A DNA stretch of 64,000 bases from Humidesulfovibrio sp. (lineage in GTDB: Bacteria > Desulfobacterota > Desulfovibrionia > Desulfovibrionales > Desulfovibrionaceae). The notes under the pieces are model-generated. The model was not told the origin of the DNA. It worked only from the letters and a program-made list of their open reading frames with translations, and made no database searches. The position numbers and the translations under genes were made by a program. Positions 6,174 through 64,000 of this stretch are shown here, piece after piece (position 1 is the first letter of the stretch; every line of letters starts with the position of its first letter). The stretch covers positions 1-64,000 of the forward strand of contig NZ_JAVHLD010000008.1 in assembly GCF_031082295.1 (NCBI RefSeq). Reading direction: 5' to 3'.

Positions 6174-7073
6174 TTATCCTCTTGCTTCGGCGGCAACCGC
6201 AGATTCAGGTTGGGCGGCGAGAAAGGCCGGTGCCTGCGGGCCGACAAGCAACACCGCGCAACGAGCCCCGTCCAACACCCTGCCGGGGATCAAGGAGTCC
6301 TGTCCGTAGCGGTCCGCAGCCAGCACGATCAGGTCGGCCTGGCTCTCCCGGGCGTCCTTCAGGATCTCCACCGAGGGGTCGCCCTCGCGCGCGGCCACGT
6401 CCATGTGGCTGACCAGCGGCAGGCTGCGGGCCAGGAAGGCCAGGCGGTCCCGCGACCGATCAAGTTCACGTTCGAGTCCATGTCCAGGCTGGTTCGAGGG
6501 CTGCGGGAGGGCGTGGAAGGCCCTGAGCGAAGCCCTTTCGCAAGCAGCCAGACGCGCTGCCACGCCAAGCACGGCTTCGGCGCTGAAGGAAAGGTCCGTG
6601 GCGGCAAGCACCCGCTGGAACGGGACAGAGGGCATGGGCGCGTTGGAGGGCACCACCAGCACCGGGCATGGCGCCGCGGCGGCGATGACCAGGGCGGCCT
6701 TGGTCGCCGATCCAGTGAGCTCGCGCCGGCAGCGCTCGACCTCGTCCAGCCCGCCCAGCACCAGAAGGTCCGGCCCCAGCAGGCGCGCGGTCTTGAGCAC
6801 CTCCACATGCACAAAGCCTGCGGCCAGCATCACGTCCGAGGTGAGTCCGACGGGCATGGCCACGCGGCACAAGGCCTCGACCTCGGCGCGGCGTGCGGCC
6901 AGGTCGGCCTCTCCGGGCAGGCGCAGCACGCAGCCGCCTTCCTGGCTCAACGGACCGCTGACGTGTTGCACGGCAAAACCCGCGCCGTGCCGGGCGGCCA
7001 GCGAAGCCGCCAGACGCATCGCCACAACGCCCACTGTCGTATCGGCCAAGGCCAGAAGCACAAGCGTGAACAT
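6174..7073 (-). CDS. Tandem universal stress protein (UspA family)
   Basis: A 299-residue cytoplasmic protein made of two Usp domains (about 1-140 and 150-280). The second ends in a stretch like LIVLAADRYGQDSLIPGRVLDGARCAVLLV, related to the G-x2-G-x9-G-S/T nucleotide-binding end of Usp proteins but with altered glycines, so ATP binding is uncertain. The ATG at 7073 follows GGAGGTGCCG. It lies 28 nt behind the DUF5320 gene and 6 nt before the flavoprotein gene. Usp proteins usually respond to redox or energy stress; the specific role is unknown. Confidence 0.87.
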   Translation of the reverse strand: MFTLVLLALADTTVGVVAMRLAASLAARHGAGFAVQHVSGPLSQEGGCVLRLPGEADLAARRAEVEALCRVAMPVGLTSDVMLAAGFVHVEVLKTARLLGPDLLVLGGLDEVERCRRELTGSATKAALVIAAAAPCPVLVVPSNAPMPSVPFQRVLAATDLSFSAEAVLGVAARLAACERASLRAFHALPQPSNQPGHGLERELDRSRDRLAFLARSLPLVSHMDVAAREGDPSVEILKDARESQADLIVLAADRYGQDSLIPGRVLDGARCAVLLVGPQAPAFLAAQPESAVAAEARG

Positions 7074-7101
7074 CGGCACCTCCATTCGTTGCGCGTGATG
7101 G

Positions 7102-7302
7102 CTACATGGCGTCGCCGGGTTTGCCCGGCTGCGCATCCTTGGGCTGCGTGCTTGAGGCTTGGCCCCGGCCCTGCCTGTTGCGGTTGCGCTGGCCTCCCTG
7201 GCCTGAGCCCTTGCCCGCGCCCTGGCCGCAAGGGCCTTGCCCGCGCCCCGATCCTTGCCCCTTGCCCTGGCCCCTAGGGCCGGTTCCGTCCTGATTCGGC
7301 AT
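7102..7302 (-). CDS. Small glycine-rich DUF5320-type protein
   Basis: A 66-residue protein starting MPNQDGTGPRGQGKGQG and rich in G, Q, R and N, with one cysteine. This matches the short DUF5320-like proteins (MPxGDGTGPxGxGP) that accompany NifX/ORP and MinD-ferredoxin genes in anaerobes; biochemical function is unknown. The ATG at 7302 is preceded by GGAGGCAACTCTC. It is the first gene of the leftward operon, 45 nt downstream of a clear sigma-54 promoter. Longer upstream reading would run through that promoter and is rejected. Confidence 0.8.
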   Translation of the reverse strand: MPNQDGTGPRGQGKGQGSGRGQGPCGQGAGKGSGQGGQRNRNRQGRGQASSTQPKDAQPGKPGDAM

Positions 7303-56977: not shown

Positions 56978-58240
56978 ATGAACAGACGTTCCCTCATCGC
57001 CTGCGCCATCGCAGCACTTTCGCTCTGCCTGTGGCTTGGTGTGGCCGTGGCCCAGCAGGCCCCCGCGGCCCCCGCGGCGGATGCCGCCAAAGCCGTTGAA
57101 GCGGCAGCCGGAAACGCGGCCAAAGCCGTGGAAGGAGCCGCCAAGGCTGTGGAAGGCGAGCCCATGAGCAAACTCGCCGCCGCCCTTGAAAAAGCCCCGC
57201 GTGGCACCGAAAAGGGCATGATCGACGAGTCCAAGCCGGCCGGCTTCCTCGGCATTCCCGGCGCGCCCACCGTCAACCCGATCCTGGCGTTTGCCTGGGC
57301 CGTGTGGGTAGGCTGGATATTCTCCACAGTTGGCGCCTTCGGCGGCGTCATGGCAGGCGTCGGCCACATGAGCGTGTTCGGCTTCGGCTCCTACGCTGGC
57401 GGACTCAAGAAGACCGCCCCGGACCTGGGCAAGATCGTCACCGACTCCATCAAGGCGTCCAACCAGTTCCTGGTGGGTACCTCCGCCGCCATCAGCTCCT
57501 TCAACTACCTTAAGATGGGCCGCCTGGTGCTGCCCCTGGCCATCAGCCTTGGCCTGGGCTCGCTGATCGGCGCGTACGGCGCGGCCGCCCTGTCCGCTGG
57601 CAAGCTCGATTTCAAGTCCTACCAGGGCTACTTCGGCCTCTTCGTCCTGGTCCTGGGCTGCTACCTGCTTTACGAAACCACCCCGGGCGCCCAGACCAAG
57701 AAAAAGACCGCCAAGGAAGCCGCCAAGGCTTTCGAGGACGCCGTCAAGAAGCTGAAGAGCGGCGAAGCCGTTGACGAGTCCAAACTCGGTCTGCACATCC
57801 AGAAGTTCAACATGTCCACCTGCGAGTTCGTGTTCTACGGCGTCCCCTTCAAGTTCAACCCGCTGATCCCCTTCCTGGGCGGCATCTGCATTTCCGCCGT
57901 GGCGGCCTTCCTGGGCGTCGGCGGCGGCTTCCTGCTGGTTCCCTTCCTGACCAGCGTGACCCAGCTGCCCATGTACCTGGCAGCCGGCACCTCGGCCCTG
58001 GCCGTGCTCGTCAGCATGGTCACCAGCATCATCACCCTTATGACCAAGGGCACTCCCATCGAGTGGACCCTCATCGGCACCGAGTTGGTGGGCATCACCG
58101 TCGGCTCCATTGTCGGCCCCATGACCTCCAAGTACCTGTCGGACAAGCTGATGAAGCGCATCTTCATCGCGCTGTCCTTCTACATCGGCTTCGGCTACCT
58201 GCTGGCCGGCTTCGTCGGCTACAAGATTCCCGGCGTCTAA
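56978..58240 (+). CDS. TauE/SafE-family exporter with alanine-rich periplasmic N-terminus
   Basis: A 420-residue membrane protein. A signal-like first helix is followed by an Ala/Lys-rich helical stretch (~25-85, repeats of AAKAVEGA), then two TauE/SafE half-repeats with GAFGGVMAGVGHMSVFGFG and FLGVGGGFLLVPFLTSV. Members export sulfite, sulfoacetate or other organosulfonates. The Ala-rich insert and a ~75-residue charged loop between halves are unusual. AAGGAGG precedes the ATG. It follows the ferredoxin subunit gene by 72 nt, which supports a link to sulfur-compound reduction. Confidence 0.87.
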   Translation: MNRRSLIACAIAALSLCLWLGVAVAQQAPAAPAADAAKAVEAAAGNAAKAVEGAAKAVEGEPMSKLAAALEKAPRGTEKGMIDESKPAGFLGIPGAPTVNPILAFAWAVWVGWIFSTVGAFGGVMAGVGHMSVFGFGSYAGGLKKTAPDLGKIVTDSIKASNQFLVGTSAAISSFNYLKMGRLVLPLAISLGLGSLIGAYGAAALSAGKLDFKSYQGYFGLFVLVLGCYLLYETTPGAQTKKKTAKEAAKAFEDAVKKLKSGEAVDESKLGLHIQKFNMSTCEFVFYGVPFKFNPLIPFLGGICISAVAAFLGVGGGFLLVPFLTSVTQLPMYLAAGTSALAVLVSMVTSIITLMTKGTPIEWTLIGTELVGITVGSIVGPMTSKYLSDKLMKRIFIALSFYIGFGYLLAGFVGYKIPGV

Positions 58241-60094: not shown

Positions 60095-61141
60095 TCAGAG
60101 CTTCAATTTGTATTGGGCCAACTTGTGGCGCAGGGTGCGCGCGCTGATGCCGAGCAACTCCGCCGTGCGGTTCTTGCTGCCGCTCGCGGCCTTGAAGGCG
60201 CGCTGGATTGCCCTGATCTCGGCCTCGCGCACCACGGAGTCGAGGTTCAGCCCCTCGACGCTGTCGTCGCCCTGGGGGCACACGGTGTCCATGCCGATGC
60301 CGAGGCGCATCTCCAGCGGCAGGTCCTCCGGCTTCACCAACCCCTCACCCTTGTGCAGGAGCACCGCGCGCTCGACCAGGTTCTTCAGCTCGCGCACGTT
60401 GCCGGGCCAGGAATGGCGGAGCAGCAGCGCCATGGTGTCCGGCGCCAGGGAAAGGTTGGGCCGATGATACTGGCAGCCGAACAGCCAGAGGAAGTATTCG
60501 GCCAGGGGCGCGATGTCCTCGGGCCGCTCGCGCAGGGACGGCAAGGAGATGGGAATGACGTTCAGGCGGTAGAACAGGTCGGCGCGGAAACGCCCGGCCC
60601 GGACCATCTCCGGGAGCAGGCGGTTGGTGGCGGCCACGATGCGGGCGCGAAACCCCTGGTCCTTCTCTCCGCCAAGGCGCTTGAAGGTGCGCTCCTCAAG
60701 AACGCGCAGGAAGTCCACCTGGTTGGACAAGGGGATGTCGCCCACTTCGTCCAAAAAAAGGGTTCCGTCGGCCGCAAGCTCGAAGCTCCCCTTCTGCAGC
60801 CGCAGCGCGCCGGTAAAGGCCCCCGGTTCGTGGCCGAAGAACTTGTCCGCAAAGAGCTCTCCCGTGAGCACACCGCAGTTCACCGGCACGAAAGGCCGCC
60901 CGCTGCGGTTGGAGAGGGTGTGCAGCAGCCTGGCGAAGAGCTCTTTGCCCGTGCCGGACTCGCCGGTGAGCAGAACCGGAGCGTCGGACCCGGCGACCTG
61001 GATGGCCACGTGGTAGAGCGCGCGCATGGATTCGGAGCGAAAGAGCAGCCCGGCTTCGTGCATGGCGGAACGCGCCTCGGGATCGCCCACCACGCTTTGC
61101 GGCAAAAATTTGCCGTCGAACATTTCGGACTCAACGCCCAT
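60095..61141 (-). CDS. Sigma-54 activator without N-terminal sensor domain
   Basis: A 348-residue protein with almost only the AAA+ core (GESGTGKE, GAFTGA in EPGAFTGALRL, GTLFLDEVGDIP, WPGNVRELKN) and a Fis-type helix-turn-helix (NRTAELLGISARTLRHKLAQYKLKL). Just ~28 residues precede the core, so activity must be set by partner proteins or expression. ATG 61141 has GAGGGG upstream. It is divergent from a TauE/SafE operon with palindromic sites and a candidate sigma-54 promoter, its likely target. Confidence 0.9.
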   Translation of the reverse strand: MGVESEMFDGKFLPQSVVGDPEARSAMHEAGLLFRSESMRALYHVAIQVAGSDAPVLLTGESGTGKELFARLLHTLSNRSGRPFVPVNCGVLTGELFADKFFGHEPGAFTGALRLQKGSFELAADGTLFLDEVGDIPLSNQVDFLRVLEERTFKRLGGEKDQGFRARIVAATNRLLPEMVRAGRFRADLFYRLNVIPISLPSLRERPEDIAPLAEYFLWLFGCQYHRPNLSLAPDTMALLLRHSWPGNVRELKNLVERAVLLHKGEGLVKPEDLPLEMRLGIGMDTVCPQGDDSVEGLNLDSVVREAEIRAIQRAFKAASGSKNRTAELLGISARTLRHKLAQYKLKL

Positions 61142-61238
61142 CCCGTTTCCCCTCTTAGAACACAGACAGGAATCCGCCCTCACTGGCTCGGCGAATAGGC
61201 TTTCCTGTGCCGAAGACACCCACACGCCATCACTACTG

Positions 61239-61252
61239 GGCAATATTTTGCC
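61239..61252. promoter_or_regulatory. Inverted repeat GGCAA-N4-TTGCC
   Basis: GGCAATATTTTGCC, a perfect 5-bp-arm palindrome between the activator and TauE/SafE genes; candidate operator. Confidence 0.5.
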
Positions 61253-61296
61253 AGTCAAGAGCAATTGGGACGAAACATGCCGCACAGGGAAGTTTC

Positions 61297-61314
61297 TTGC
61301 CGCTTTTGCGGCAA
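61297..61314. promoter_or_regulatory. Palindrome TTGCCGC-TTTT-GCGGCAA, probable activator site
   Basis: Perfect 7-bp arms. The half-site TTGCCGC repeats at about 61319 and ATGCCGC at about 61278. It lies 65 nt upstream of the candidate sigma-54 promoter, typical for an enhancer. Confidence 0.65.
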
Positions 61315-61377
61315 TCTCTTGCCGCATGACCGCGCCAGCGTTTTCAATAAATCAAATTATTACAAGCTGTTATTGTT

Positions 61378-61393
61378 CGGCACAGATATTGAT
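61378..61393 (+). promoter_or_regulatory. Candidate sigma-54 promoter of the second TauE/SafE operon
   Basis: CGGCACAGATATTGAT: good -24 element (GGCAC), -12 element TTGA instead of TTGC. Spacing is correct, and the start codon is 83 nt downstream. Confidence 0.45.
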
Positions 61394-61476: not shown

Positions 61477-62484
61477 ATGACGATGAATCGGAAACATGTG
61501 CTGGCGGGCTCCGCCTGTATTGCCTTGATGGGTGTGCTGCTTTTCGCGGCCATGGCCTGGGCCTCCAACGCGGGTACGGATGCCGTTGCCCAAGCGGGCT
61601 CTGAAATGGTCAAGGCTGGCGCGCAGCTTGGCGCGGACACGGGCGTTGCCTGGTGGGTTTGGCCCCTGGTGCTCCTGTTCTTCTGCTTTGTGCTCGGCAT
61701 CATCGCCGTGCTTGCGGGTGTTGGCGGCGGCGTGCTTTACGTGCCCCTCGTCAGCGGCTTCTTCCCCTTCCACCTAGACTTCGTGCGCGGCGCGGGCCTC
61801 ATGGTGGCCCTGGCCGGTGCGCTGGCCGCTGGCCCCGGCTTGCTTAAGCGAAACTTCGCCTCGTTGCGCCTGGCCCTGCCCGTGGCGCTCATCGCCTCCA
61901 GCTGCGCCATCGTCGGCGCGTTCCTGGGCATGGCCCTGCCCACCAATGTCGTCCAGCTTTTCCTGGGCATCACCATCATGGGCATCGCCATCCTGCTCCT
62001 GTGCTCCAAGAACTCGGCGCACCCCGTCGTCAACAAGCAGGACGCCCTCGGCTTGGCCCTGGGCATGAACGGCGCCTACAATGATCCCTCCACCGGCGAG
62101 CTGGTGCAGTGGAAGACCCACCGCACCCTGCCCGGCCTCCTGATGTTCATCATCATCGGCATCATGGCCGGCATGTTCGGCCTGGGCGCCGGCTGGGCCA
62201 ACGTGCCCGTGCTGAACCTCATGATGGGCGCGCCCCTCAAGGTGGCCGTGGGCACCAGCAAGTTCCTCCTGTCCATCACCGACACCTCCGCCGCCTGGGT
62301 TTACCTGAACAAGGGCTGCGTCATCCCGCTCATGGCCATTCCGAGCATCATCGGCCTCATGCTGGGTTCTTTCGTCGGCGTGCGGCTGCTGGCCAAGGCC
62401 AAGCCCACCTTCATCCGTTACATGGTCATCGGCGTGCTGCTCTTTGCGGGCGGCAAGGCTCTCCTCAAGGGCCTGGGCATTTAA
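61477..62484 (+). CDS. TauE/SafE-family exporter, second copy
   Basis: A 335-residue membrane protein: signal-like first helix, short Ala-rich periplasmic stretch, then half-repeats with GVGGGVLYVPLVSGFFP and GLGAGWANVPVLNLMMGAPLKVAVGTS. About eight further helices. Same family as the 56978 protein but without its long inserts. GGGAG lies 5 nt before ATG 61477; ATG 61483 is an alternative. Followed by a small membrane protein gene, and probably controlled by the divergent sigma-54 activator. Confidence 0.87.
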   Translation: MTMNRKHVLAGSACIALMGVLLFAAMAWASNAGTDAVAQAGSEMVKAGAQLGADTGVAWWVWPLVLLFFCFVLGIIAVLAGVGGGVLYVPLVSGFFPFHLDFVRGAGLMVALAGALAAGPGLLKRNFASLRLALPVALIASSCAIVGAFLGMALPTNVVQLFLGITIMGIAILLLCSKNSAHPVVNKQDALGLALGMNGAYNDPSTGELVQWKTHRTLPGLLMFIIIGIMAGMFGLGAGWANVPVLNLMMGAPLKVAVGTSKFLLSITDTSAAWVYLNKGCVIPLMAIPSIIGLMLGSFVGVRLLAKAKPTFIRYMVIGVLLFAGGKALLKGLGI

Positions 62485-62522: not shown

Positions 62523-62948
62523 ATGAGCGATACCATTCATACCGGCAAAGCGACTCCCGAGCAGGTCACCTACGCCAACATGCTGTTCTACGGCTGCTGG
62601 GGCGGCCTTGCCCTCATGGCCGTGACCTACCTGCTCTACGTGTTTGGCATCATCACCCCGCACGTGCCCCTGGAAAAGGTTCCCTTGCTCTGGTCCCAGC
62701 CCGTCGGCACCTACCTTGAGCTGGGCAATGTCCCCACCGGCTGGGGCTGGAGCGTGCTCATCGCCAAGGGCGATTTCCTCAACTTCCTGGGCATCGTCCT
62801 TCTGGCGGGCATGACAATTGTTTGTTATATTCCGCTCATCCCGGCCTTCTTGAAGCGCAAGGAGCTCGTCTTCGCCGCGCTCGCCCTGGCCGAGATCATC
62901 GTGCTTCTGTTCGCCGCTTCCGGCATTGTTGGCGGGGGCGCGCACTAG
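62523..62948 (+). CDS. Small membrane protein next to TauE/SafE (DUF1634-like position)
   Basis: A 141-residue protein with three hydrophobic helices (~25-45, ~85-107, ~115-137) and a periplasmic-looking loop with GNVPTGWGWS. Small membrane proteins (for example DUF1634) often sit beside TauE/SafE genes; I cannot assign this one firmly. GGAGG precedes the ATG. Confidence 0.75.
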   Translation: MSDTIHTGKATPEQVTYANMLFYGCWGGLALMAVTYLLYVFGIITPHVPLEKVPLLWSQPVGTYLELGNVPTGWGWSVLIAKGDFLNFLGIVLLAGMTIVCYIPLIPAFLKRKELVFAALALAEIIVLLFAASGIVGGGAH

Positions 62949-63008
62949 TACTGCCCACCCACCAGGGAGGCGGGCGCAGGCATAACGCTTCCCTGGGGAG
63001 GACACGAG

Positions 63009-64000
63009 TTGGATCAGAACACACTCATCAGCTTGAGCGGACTGGACAGGGCCGACCTGCCCCGCATCCTGCGCGAACTGCCCTTCGGGGTGGCCGTGCT
63101 GGATGCGGAGCGCCGGACCCTGTTCCTGAACCGCGCTCTGGAGAGCCTGACCGGCTACAACACCGCGGACGTGGCGGGGGTGTACTGCCGCCACGTGCTG
63201 CGGGGCAGCTTCTGCCTGCATGACTGCCCGCGCCAGCCGCAGTCCGGGTCCTGCGCACCCGAAGCCTGCAGCGAGGCCCGCGAGGGCACCCTGGTCAACC
63301 GCCACCGCCGCAAGATTCCCGTGCGGCTGACCAGCCTGCCGGTGCTTGATCGCGAGGGCAAGCTGCTGTGCACCTTGGACGTTCTGGAAGATCTTTCGGC
63401 CCTGAAGGACATGGAGACACGGCTCTCCGTTTCCGCCAGCCCGGGCCAGATGGTCGGCCGCTGCGCCGTCATGGAGCACCTGCTGCGCATCCTTCCCGCC
63501 GTGGCGCAAAGCGACTCCTCCGTGCTGCTCACGGGAGAATCCGGCACCGGCAAGGACCTTCTGGCCGAGTCCCTGCACCGCTTCAGCCCCAGGGCGCGCG
63601 AGAGCTTTGTGCGGGTGAACGCCACGCCCATGCCCGAGGCCCTGCTCGACGCCGAGCTTTTCGGCCAGGTGGAAGGCCCCGGCGGCGTGCCCAGGCCCGG
63701 CAAATTCCAGCTGGCGCAAAACGGCACCCTGTACCTCTCCGAGATCGCGGACATGCCCCTTGCGCAGCAGGGCCGCCTGCTTCGCCTGCTTGACGAGAAG
63801 GCAGTGGTGCCAGCCGGTGGCGAGCGCCCCATGCACCTGAACGTCCGCGTGGTGGCCGCCTCGGGTCGCGACCCGGAGGAAATGGTCAAGGCCGGACTGT
63901 TGCGGGAAGACCTGTTCCACCGCCTGAACGCCGTGCGCCTGCACCTGCCGCCCCTGCGCGAGCGTGGCGAGGACATCAACTTCCTGCTGGCGCACTACCT
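63009..64000 (+). CDS. PAS-containing sigma-54-activator-like protein with altered AAA+ motifs (cut by window end)
   Basis: Starts at TTG 63009, with GGAGG 7 nt ahead, and stays open to the window end (330 codons). An N-terminal PAS domain (LPRILRELPFGVAVLDAERRTLFLNRAL) has a cysteine-rich insert (CRHVLRGSFCLHDCP, CAPEAC). The AAA+ part has an intact Walker A (GESGTGKD), but the loop that should read GAFTGA reads EGPGGVPRPGKF, and Walker B is GTLYLSEIADMP with Ser for Asp. Arginine-finger region and PPLRERGEDINFLL remain. It probably cannot open sigma-54 complexes normally. It follows the small membrane protein gene in the same direction. Confidence 0.85.
   Translation, partial: MDQNTLISLSGLDRADLPRILRELPFGVAVLDAERRTLFLNRALESLTGYNTADVAGVYCRHVLRGSFCLHDCPRQPQSGSCAPEACSEAREGTLVNRHRRKIPVRLTSLPVLDREGKLLCTLDVLEDLSALKDMETRLSVSASPGQMVGRCAVMEHLLRILPAVAQSDSSVLLTGESGTGKDLLAESLHRFSPRARESFVRVNATPMPEALLDAELFGQVEGPGGVPRPGKFQLAQNGTLYLSEIADMPLAQQGRLLRLLDEKAVVPAGGERPMHLNVRVVAASGRDPEEMVKAGLLREDLFHRLNAVRLHLPPLRERGEDINFLLAHY

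Follow-up and report, generated by a model that had tools for sequence, protein, structure and literature searches.

A family of degenerate sigma-54 activator relatives beside a sensorless activator in Desulfovibrionales, and its possible role as an output-dead sensory subunit

Sigma-54 activators (bEBPs) usually carry sensor and output in one chain. The closest described counterpart of the locus analyzed here is the DVU2956/DVU2960 pair of D. vulgaris, which, like the pair reported below, consists of a divergent GAFTGA activator without an N-terminal domain and a one-component EBP encoded in the operon (PMC4641369). The element upstream of DVU2957, which like the putative site described below has three half-sites, was bound in EMSA by DVU2956 and not by DVU2960; the latter carries GAFPGA and is given no regulon or role in the published work (PMC4641369). 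A review of Zhu 2019 presents DVU2956 as a biofilm switch, with plasmid-made DVU2956 being enough for the biofilm effect.

Three further systems are relevant. FleT of Cereibacter/Rhodobacter sphaeroides is, like the protein described here, an EBP with no DNA-binding domain (HTH); its expression depends on FleQ, and it takes part in hetero-oligomers (PMC11999139). FleT has no signal domain and has been grouped with the sigma-54 EBPs (PMC3162934), whereas our protein has a PAS domain and no sigma-54 loop; because the sigma-54 EBP set of PMC3162934 was filtered for GAFTGA, FleT presumably has the loop. PspF of E. coli resembles the activator encoded at position 60095 of our window in being an EBP without a regulatory domain of its own; PspF is controlled in trans (PMC3791423). 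Finally, Caulobacter NtrC, TyrR, DhaR and HupR share with our protein a bEBP fold without a proper GAFTGA loop (PMC12421884, PMC3162934).

What is known already is a pair in one organism, with its second member unexplained. New are the clade-wide loss of the loop and of the HTH, the association of this loss with a sensorless activator, an intermediate, and an intact version in the same operon. Literature searches found no description of such a loop-less, HTH-less clade.

Architecture of the locus

The window, i.e., the whole 64,000-nucleotide stretch analyzed, covers bases 1–64000 of a contig that is 114052 bases long; the draft genome to which this contig belongs totals 3.45 Mb. We use dEBP (degenerate bEBP) for the module proteins orthologous to the product of the gene at 63009, and N60095 for homologues of the activator encoded at 60095. 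The features of the operon and of its dEBP are as follows.

61477–62484, plus strand: TauE/SafE (TSUP) permease, encoded by the gene that leads the operon (Pfam)
62523–62948, plus strand: TM141, a small hydrophobic, probably membrane protein (no Pfam or NCBIfam match)
63009–64000 in the window, continuing to contig position 64274, plus strand: dEBP gene, TTG start, 421 aa
63054–63374, plus strand: PAS domain, dEBP residues 16–122 (Pfam)
63534–63557, plus strand: Walker A, GESGTGKD, dEBP residues 176–183 (sequence, Pfam)
63666–63698, plus strand: QVEGPGGVPRP in place of the L1 (GAFTGA) loop (sequence, loop comparison)
63735–63752, plus strand: Walker B, LSEIAD, in which Ser replaces Asp and Glu is retained (sequence, residue counts)
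63903–63923, plus strand: presumed arginine-finger positions R299 and R305 of the dEBP (residue counts)

The TTG start of the dEBP gene at 63009 is preceded by GGGGAGGA at 62995–63002, in agreement with the initial annotation, which had pointed to a TTG start with a ribosome site. The frame stays open up to the window end at 64000, and its stop lies at contig position 64274. Retention of Walker A and of the PAS domain, also claimed initially, is borne out by the Pfam matches; within the PAS domain lies a cysteine motif, C60-x8-C69-x3-C73. Pfam further assigns an AAA+ domain (PF00158, 162 bits) to residues 149–311 and AAA_lid_14 to residues 317–397. Following the rest of the gene to contig position 64274 revealed no helix-turn-helix: a Pfam search of the whole 421-aa protein returned no HTH, and the C-terminus after the lid comprises only about 30 residues, the last four being RNKA (RKKA in many congeners). 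An NCBIfam search of the dEBP returned bEBP models only, all far under their cut-offs. In an AlphaFold model (38 sequences, mean pLDDT 85.6), the PAS and AAA+ parts are ordered and the tail is disordered; the modelled AAA+ part resembles the structures of NtrC1, PspF and FleQ, with a TM-score of about 0.9 by target length. Of the hallmarks of a bEBP, the dEBP thus has an AAA+ domain with Walker A and has none of the GAFTGA loop, the HTH and the Walker B Asp-Glu.

Downstream of the dEBP gene, the plus strand encodes a Nitro_FeMo-Co protein (PF02579; contig 64284–64634) and a dCache histidine kinase, followed by a receiver, a 208-aa protein, a 106-aa ORF, another receiver and a receiver-kinase. 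The gene for the 208-aa protein (contig 66774–67400) lies between two receiver genes; the protein has no Pfam or NCBIfam match and looks by eye like a kinase DHp region. A second TauE-like membrane gene is present a few genes upstream of the module, at window positions 56978–58240; among the stretches compared, only L042 and L043 have it in the same place. The gene order, with N60095 on the minus strand and the remaining genes on the plus strand, is broadly retained in 56 other module loci, within the reach of each stretch, and the Nitro_FeMo-Co protein was matched together with the dEBP in 56/56 of them. The window and these 56 loci have what we take to be the layout of the DVU2960 locus, with a position beside a DVU2956-type activator with a TSUP-type permease leading the operon. 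D. vulgaris Hildenborough belongs to Nitratidesulfovibrio, and we take N60095 to correspond to DVU2956 and the dEBP to DVU2960 on the grounds of locus layout, loop motif and genus.

The partner activator and the region between the divergent genes contain the following features.

60095–61327, minus strand: N60095, DVU2956-type partner activator with normal GAFTGA, Walker B DE and a Fis-type HTH
61297–61325, no strand assigned: putative enhancer site TTGCCGCTTTTGCGGCAATCTCTTGCCGC, three half-sites (TTGCCGC, GCGGCAA, TTGCCGC) separated by tttt and tctc (motif pattern)
61379–61392, plus strand: GGCACAGATATTGA, a putative sigma-54 -24/-12 element that precedes the operon and has GA, not GC, at -12

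The true start of N60095 is probably near 61141, because the part of the ORF upstream of this position is not conserved. A domain search recognised no N-terminal sensor domain in the window protein, and 0/10 whole open N60095 frames from other loci gave an N-terminal sensor match; most of the 57 N60095 rows start at the tblastn match, and the N-terminal check consists of these 10 frames and the window protein.

Both control elements fall between 61141 and 61477, and the enhancer-like palindrome pattern occurs once in the whole genome. In 57 loci, TTGCC-N5-9-GGCAA was found in 30 (shuffle mean 0.17), TGCC-N6-9-GGCA in 39 (2.3), three half-sites in 23 (0.05) and a sigma-54-like element in 45 (7.2); these counts are descriptive, the patterns having been chosen after viewing the alignment, and the shuffled controls were made by moving two-base blocks, which falls short of strict dinucleotide shuffling. 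In the window's congeners, the -12 part of the sigma-54-like element ends in GA, and strict promoter patterns therefore did not detect it; it emerged from a weighted scan and from the alignment. The UAS-like repeat is not universal, its loosest pattern being present in 39/57 loci and absent from the Nitratidesulfovibrio locus L125, so that the likeness to the published D. vulgaris site, which comes from that same genus, is putative. The operon lies behind both the UAS-like and the sigma-54-like element, and the 60095 protein may control it.

Loss of the loop and of the HTH across orthologues

A GA[FY]T motif in the loop is present in 0/56 dEBPs (window included), in 18/18 relatives without a partner and in 56/57 N60095 proteins, and HTH_8 in 4/56, 17/18 and 57/57, respectively. 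The 56 dEBPs exclude L138, which has one in-frame TGA and was read with X in trees and residue counts, as well as the congeners L017 and L026 on short contigs, both without GAFTGA (L026 from a partial match). The 18 relatives exclude L169–L171, taken as other bEBPs, and include L078 and L080 (GAFTDA, Walker B Asp), which lie outside the sister clade in trees. Only one N60095 row has no loop; it comes from L132 and covers just the C-terminal part of an interrupted frame. At L132 9325–10417, the partner activator frame is split in two pieces, through error or decay. In L138 (G065:C53, frame from 4549), the in-frame TGA coincides exactly with a conserved PAS cysteine (C69 in the window); at this single locus, it is possibly a sequencing error or selenocysteine.

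The replacement of the GAFTGA loop by a shorter Pro/Gly stretch, the central claim of the initial annotation, is confirmed: between FG and GKF, the window dEBP has 11 residues (QVEGPGGVPRP) versus 14 in relatives without a partner, be their motif GAFTGA or GAFTDA. Among dEBPs, loop length ranges from 8 to 20 residues. Ten dEBPs have a 14-residue loop, and each of these has Pro at the Thr position, where defective EBPs have been reported to prefer Pro (PMC3162934). The four HTH-bearing dEBPs form a group (g39, judged from the tails) that we take as Nitratidesulfovibrio because the N. oxamicus record L195 has the same combination of GAFPGA and HTH; this is the loop published for DVU2960. Thus, the four orthologues from DVU2960's genus keep the HTH and a loop of full length with GAFPGA, whereas the window dEBP has no HTH and a shorter loop; the 51 other orthologues likewise gave no HTH match, and their loop is mostly shorter. 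A normal GAFTGA in orthologues, which would have indicated a local mutation or error, occurs in none of the partner-bearing loci and was seen only in L220 and L248, whose available stretches contain no partner.

The absence of an HTH bears on the suggestion, made in the initial annotation, of a sigma-70-type regulator like TyrR. TyrR, DhaR, HupR and Caulobacter NtrC bind DNA and act at sigma-70 promoters, in contrast to the dEBP, which has no HTH. In favor of the suggestion, TyrR, DhaR and HupR are reported to work with sigma-70 while having no proper GAFTGA (PMC3162934). It is contradicted here by the absence of an HTH in 52/56 dEBPs and by the EMSA, in which DVU2960, though its genus keeps the HTH, gave no shift with the upstream region (PMC4641369). 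Since a DNA-binding domain of its own is what such a regulator needs, we rejected this explanation and consider it very improbable.

Variation of this extent in the loop and tail could also mark a decaying pseudogene, a local mutation or a sequencing error. The dEBP loop and tail are indeed free to vary; however, the matched frame is open in 55/56 loci and in the window, and the Walker A Lys is present in 32/32 sampled dEBPs. Within the dEBP, pairwise median dN/dS (Nei-Gojobori; 12/15 genomes of the genus) is lowest in the AAA+ domain (0.15), followed by the lid (0.22), PAS (0.42) and the tail (0.83); for comparison, TauE gives 0.16 and the AAA+ domain of N60095 gives 0.08. Purifying selection acts on the AAA+ domain of the dEBP. 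With the GAFTGA-type loop absent from 56/56 module orthologues, a sequence error or local mutation was rejected, and decay or error of any kind is hardly credible.

Residue counts were made on 32/57 dEBPs, 15/18 relatives without a partner and 12/57 N60095 proteins. In the window dEBP, the Walker B context is LYLSEIAD, with Asp replaced by Ser and Glu retained, as the initial annotation had correctly reported. The Asp place is occupied by Ser in 21 of the 32 dEBPs, by Ala in 6, Thr in 3 and Pro in 2, and the next place by Glu in 28 and Asp in 4. In the GAFTGA-bearing sister family, the Asp place holds Thr in 15/15 sampled rows; the more distant GAFTDA relatives L078 and L080 retain Asp. Judging by these rows, loss of the Walker B Asp predates loss of the loop. 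It is a weak sign of inactivity, because the GAFTGA-bearing sister family is also without the Asp, and its use as proof of an inactive ATPase was rejected for the same reason. The sensor II Arg is present in 32/32 sampled dEBPs, and Arg at R299 in 26/32 and at R305 in 30/32; we take R299 and R305 to be arginine fingers, and assign the other residue roles, by analogy with PspF. In dEBPs, sensor I and the positions around it are divergent, and 6/32 have lost R299. The complete PAS motif C-x8-C-x3-C was found in 15/15 sampled intact relatives and in 26/32 dEBPs. The motif suggests a metal or redox signal, and since it is incomplete in 6/32, the signal need not be uniform.

Co-occurrence with the partner and ancestry

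A search by dEBP similarity gave 39 loci. An N60095 homologue is present in 21, and in 21/21 of these the dEBP is without GAFTGA; the 18 loci without N60095 keep GAFTGA (16) or GAFTDA (2). As a choice of loci based on similarity could bias this comparison, we used TM141, rather than either regulator, as bait. TM141 is found in 131/348 genomes of the class and also in records titled Nitrospirae, and a TauE gene is in the stretch in 81/81 TM141 loci. In 60 further loci, hand-picked across genera from the 131 genomes, N60095 and dEBP were both present in 35, both missing in 25 and found singly in 0. Presence required >40% and >250 bits for dEBP and >48% and >200 bits for N60095; weaker matches (34–45%, e.g., L152–L154, L169–L171) were counted as other bEBPs.

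An additional 80 named loci, which mostly repeat the same species as the main set and were kept out of the counts, gave both genes in 36, neither in 37 and one in 7. Of the seven one-gene cases, L175, L176 and L195 are cut by contig ends, L211 and L225 are generic bEBP matches, and L220 and L248 have the intact version. At E up to 1e-110, a threshold that misses Nitratidesulfovibrio, N60095 was detected in 58/348 genomes of the class and in 14/15 of the genus. In congener G007, whose genome is 82% complete, the dEBP is present and N60095 gave no match at E 1e-110; the dEBP contig stops before the expected place of N60095. A loop-less dEBP without N60095 was seen only where the contig ends, and the sensorless partner is present wherever the flank is long enough to show it.

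Because both genes come and go together, and the partner's presence is associated with loss of the loop and HTH, a functional link between the dEBP and the 60095 activator is strongly suggested by these comparisons. The initial annotation is partly supported: the link to the 60095 protein stands, the mixed hexamers and the anti-activator role that it proposed are possible, and its TyrR-like alternative is contradicted. However, locus counts are not independent events, as all 32 sampled dEBPs fall into a single clade, and descent from one old operon could also account for the co-inheritance.

The same loci bear on the explanation that the dEBP acts separately from the 60095 protein, sensing with its PAS domain and the Nitro_FeMo-Co protein and signaling to the operon's histidine kinase and receivers. 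The kinase and receivers do follow in module loci. Moreover, a FeMoCo gene lies close behind the EBP gene in 12/18 loci without a partner (counted by eye with gene ends), and one is present in the window's locus and in 56/56 other module loci, so that the pairing of EBP and FeMoCo predates the association with 60095. However, in 7 of the 25 loci with neither regulator (L157–L162, L168) and in the short-contig L144, a kinase with a receiver lies directly behind TM141; here TauE, TM141, kinase and receivers stand alone, without dEBP, FeMoCo or N60095, and the relay therefore does not need the dEBP. The restriction of partnerless loop-less dEBPs to contig ends also argues against separate action, which we regard as quite unlikely.

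L220 and L248, both from named Deltaproteobacteria records, have the order TauE-TM141-EBP-FeMoCo-HK-RR, with an EBP that has intact GAFTGA and HTH. Their stretches, which extend beyond TauE on its upstream side by 7.1 and 6.9 kb, gave no separate N60095 match, and their bases 6201–7148 contain neither control-region motif pattern. Their arrangement likely represents the ancestral type. A PAS+AAA tree from which the columns of the loop and of Walker B were removed places the 32 sampled dEBPs in a single clade (100/99), next to an intact family (95/90) that contains L220 and L248; Nitratidesulfovibrio, with GAFPGA and HTH, is the first branch of the dEBPs, and the other 30, which have lost the HTH, group at 99/98. 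An AAA-only tree also recovers the dEBPs as a single clade, and likewise the N60095 proteins, and does not resolve the first split inside the dEBPs. On the PAS+AAA topology, Nitratidesulfovibrio is an intermediate, with GAFPGA and HTH. The simplest order compatible with these relationships would be an intact operon EBP, then arrival of N60095 and the Thr-to-Pro change, then HTH loss, and then erosion of the loop.

A possible sensory subunit of the activator ring

We favor, with moderate confidence, an explanation in which the dEBP is an output-dead subunit with a sensory function, which would exert control over the 60095 activator by entering its ring or capping it. The dEBP keeps the PAS domain and most ring-forming residues of the AAA+ domain, and the two outputs that a sigma-54 activator has, the sigma-54-contacting loop and the HTH, are gone. 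The 60095 protein would bind the upstream site and open the operon promoter, and dEBP made from the operon would co-assemble with it via the shared AAA+ interface. Rings containing or capped by dEBP would be impaired, because dEBP subunits are without the L1 loop. The PAS domain, perhaps together with the Nitro_FeMo-Co neighbor, would set the amount of active 60095 ring.

The dEBP would probably act as an anti-activator, since inhibition is more readily explained by a subunit without the L1 loop. The sign is thus most likely negative: the dEBP would restrain its activator in trans and with feedback, much as PspA does with PspF; a co-activator role is conceivable. PspA is encoded in the operon that its target PspF activates. 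PspA is a helical protein unrelated to the AAA+ family, whereas the dEBP is itself an AAA+ protein. A positive sign is also possible, because Caulobacter NtrC, which has no GAFTGA, is reported to promote sigma-54-dependent expression even with mutated DNA binding (PMC12421884), and FleT helps its partner (PMC11999139).

A rival explanation, which we consider unlikely, is an obligate co-activator: a mixed ring would be more active than a ring of the 60095 protein alone, with the dEBP giving the signal and arginine fingers and the 60095 protein the loops and DNA binding. Most dEBPs retain the residues of the arginine fingers and of Walker A, and there are precedents in FleQ/FleT, where FleT, without a DNA-binding domain and dependent on FleQ, forms hetero-oligomers (PMC11999139), and in the HrpR/HrpS and VnfA paralogues (PMC9542535). 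However, FleT presumably has a GAFTGA loop (PMC3162934) and the dEBP has none, and the sufficiency of plasmid-made DVU2956 in the review of Zhu 2019 speaks against an obligate partner, with the reservation that the hosts may carry a dEBP.

In several genera of sulfate reducers, the dEBP adjoins a complete activator without a recognised sensor, so that the two proteins look like one split switch. We propose, tentatively and at a little under even confidence, that a one-component regulator was split into an output-dead sensor and a sensorless activator, with the signal entering the ring only via dead neighbors, and that this division has been kept by selection in several Desulfovibrionales genera; the dEBP would then be a pseudo-enzyme regulator within the bEBP family. 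The states form an ordered series: first an intact protein that has GAFTGA and HTH and is encoded in the same operon, then one that combines GAFPGA with the HTH, and finally one with neither, the later states standing beside an activator that has no recognised sensor. For annotation, the family is a caution that proteins matching sigma-54 activator domains need not be activators. If confirmed, the dEBP would be a natural pseudo-AAA+ subunit controlling an activator ring, and would provide a role for DVU2960, so far unexplained beside DVU2956 in D. vulgaris.
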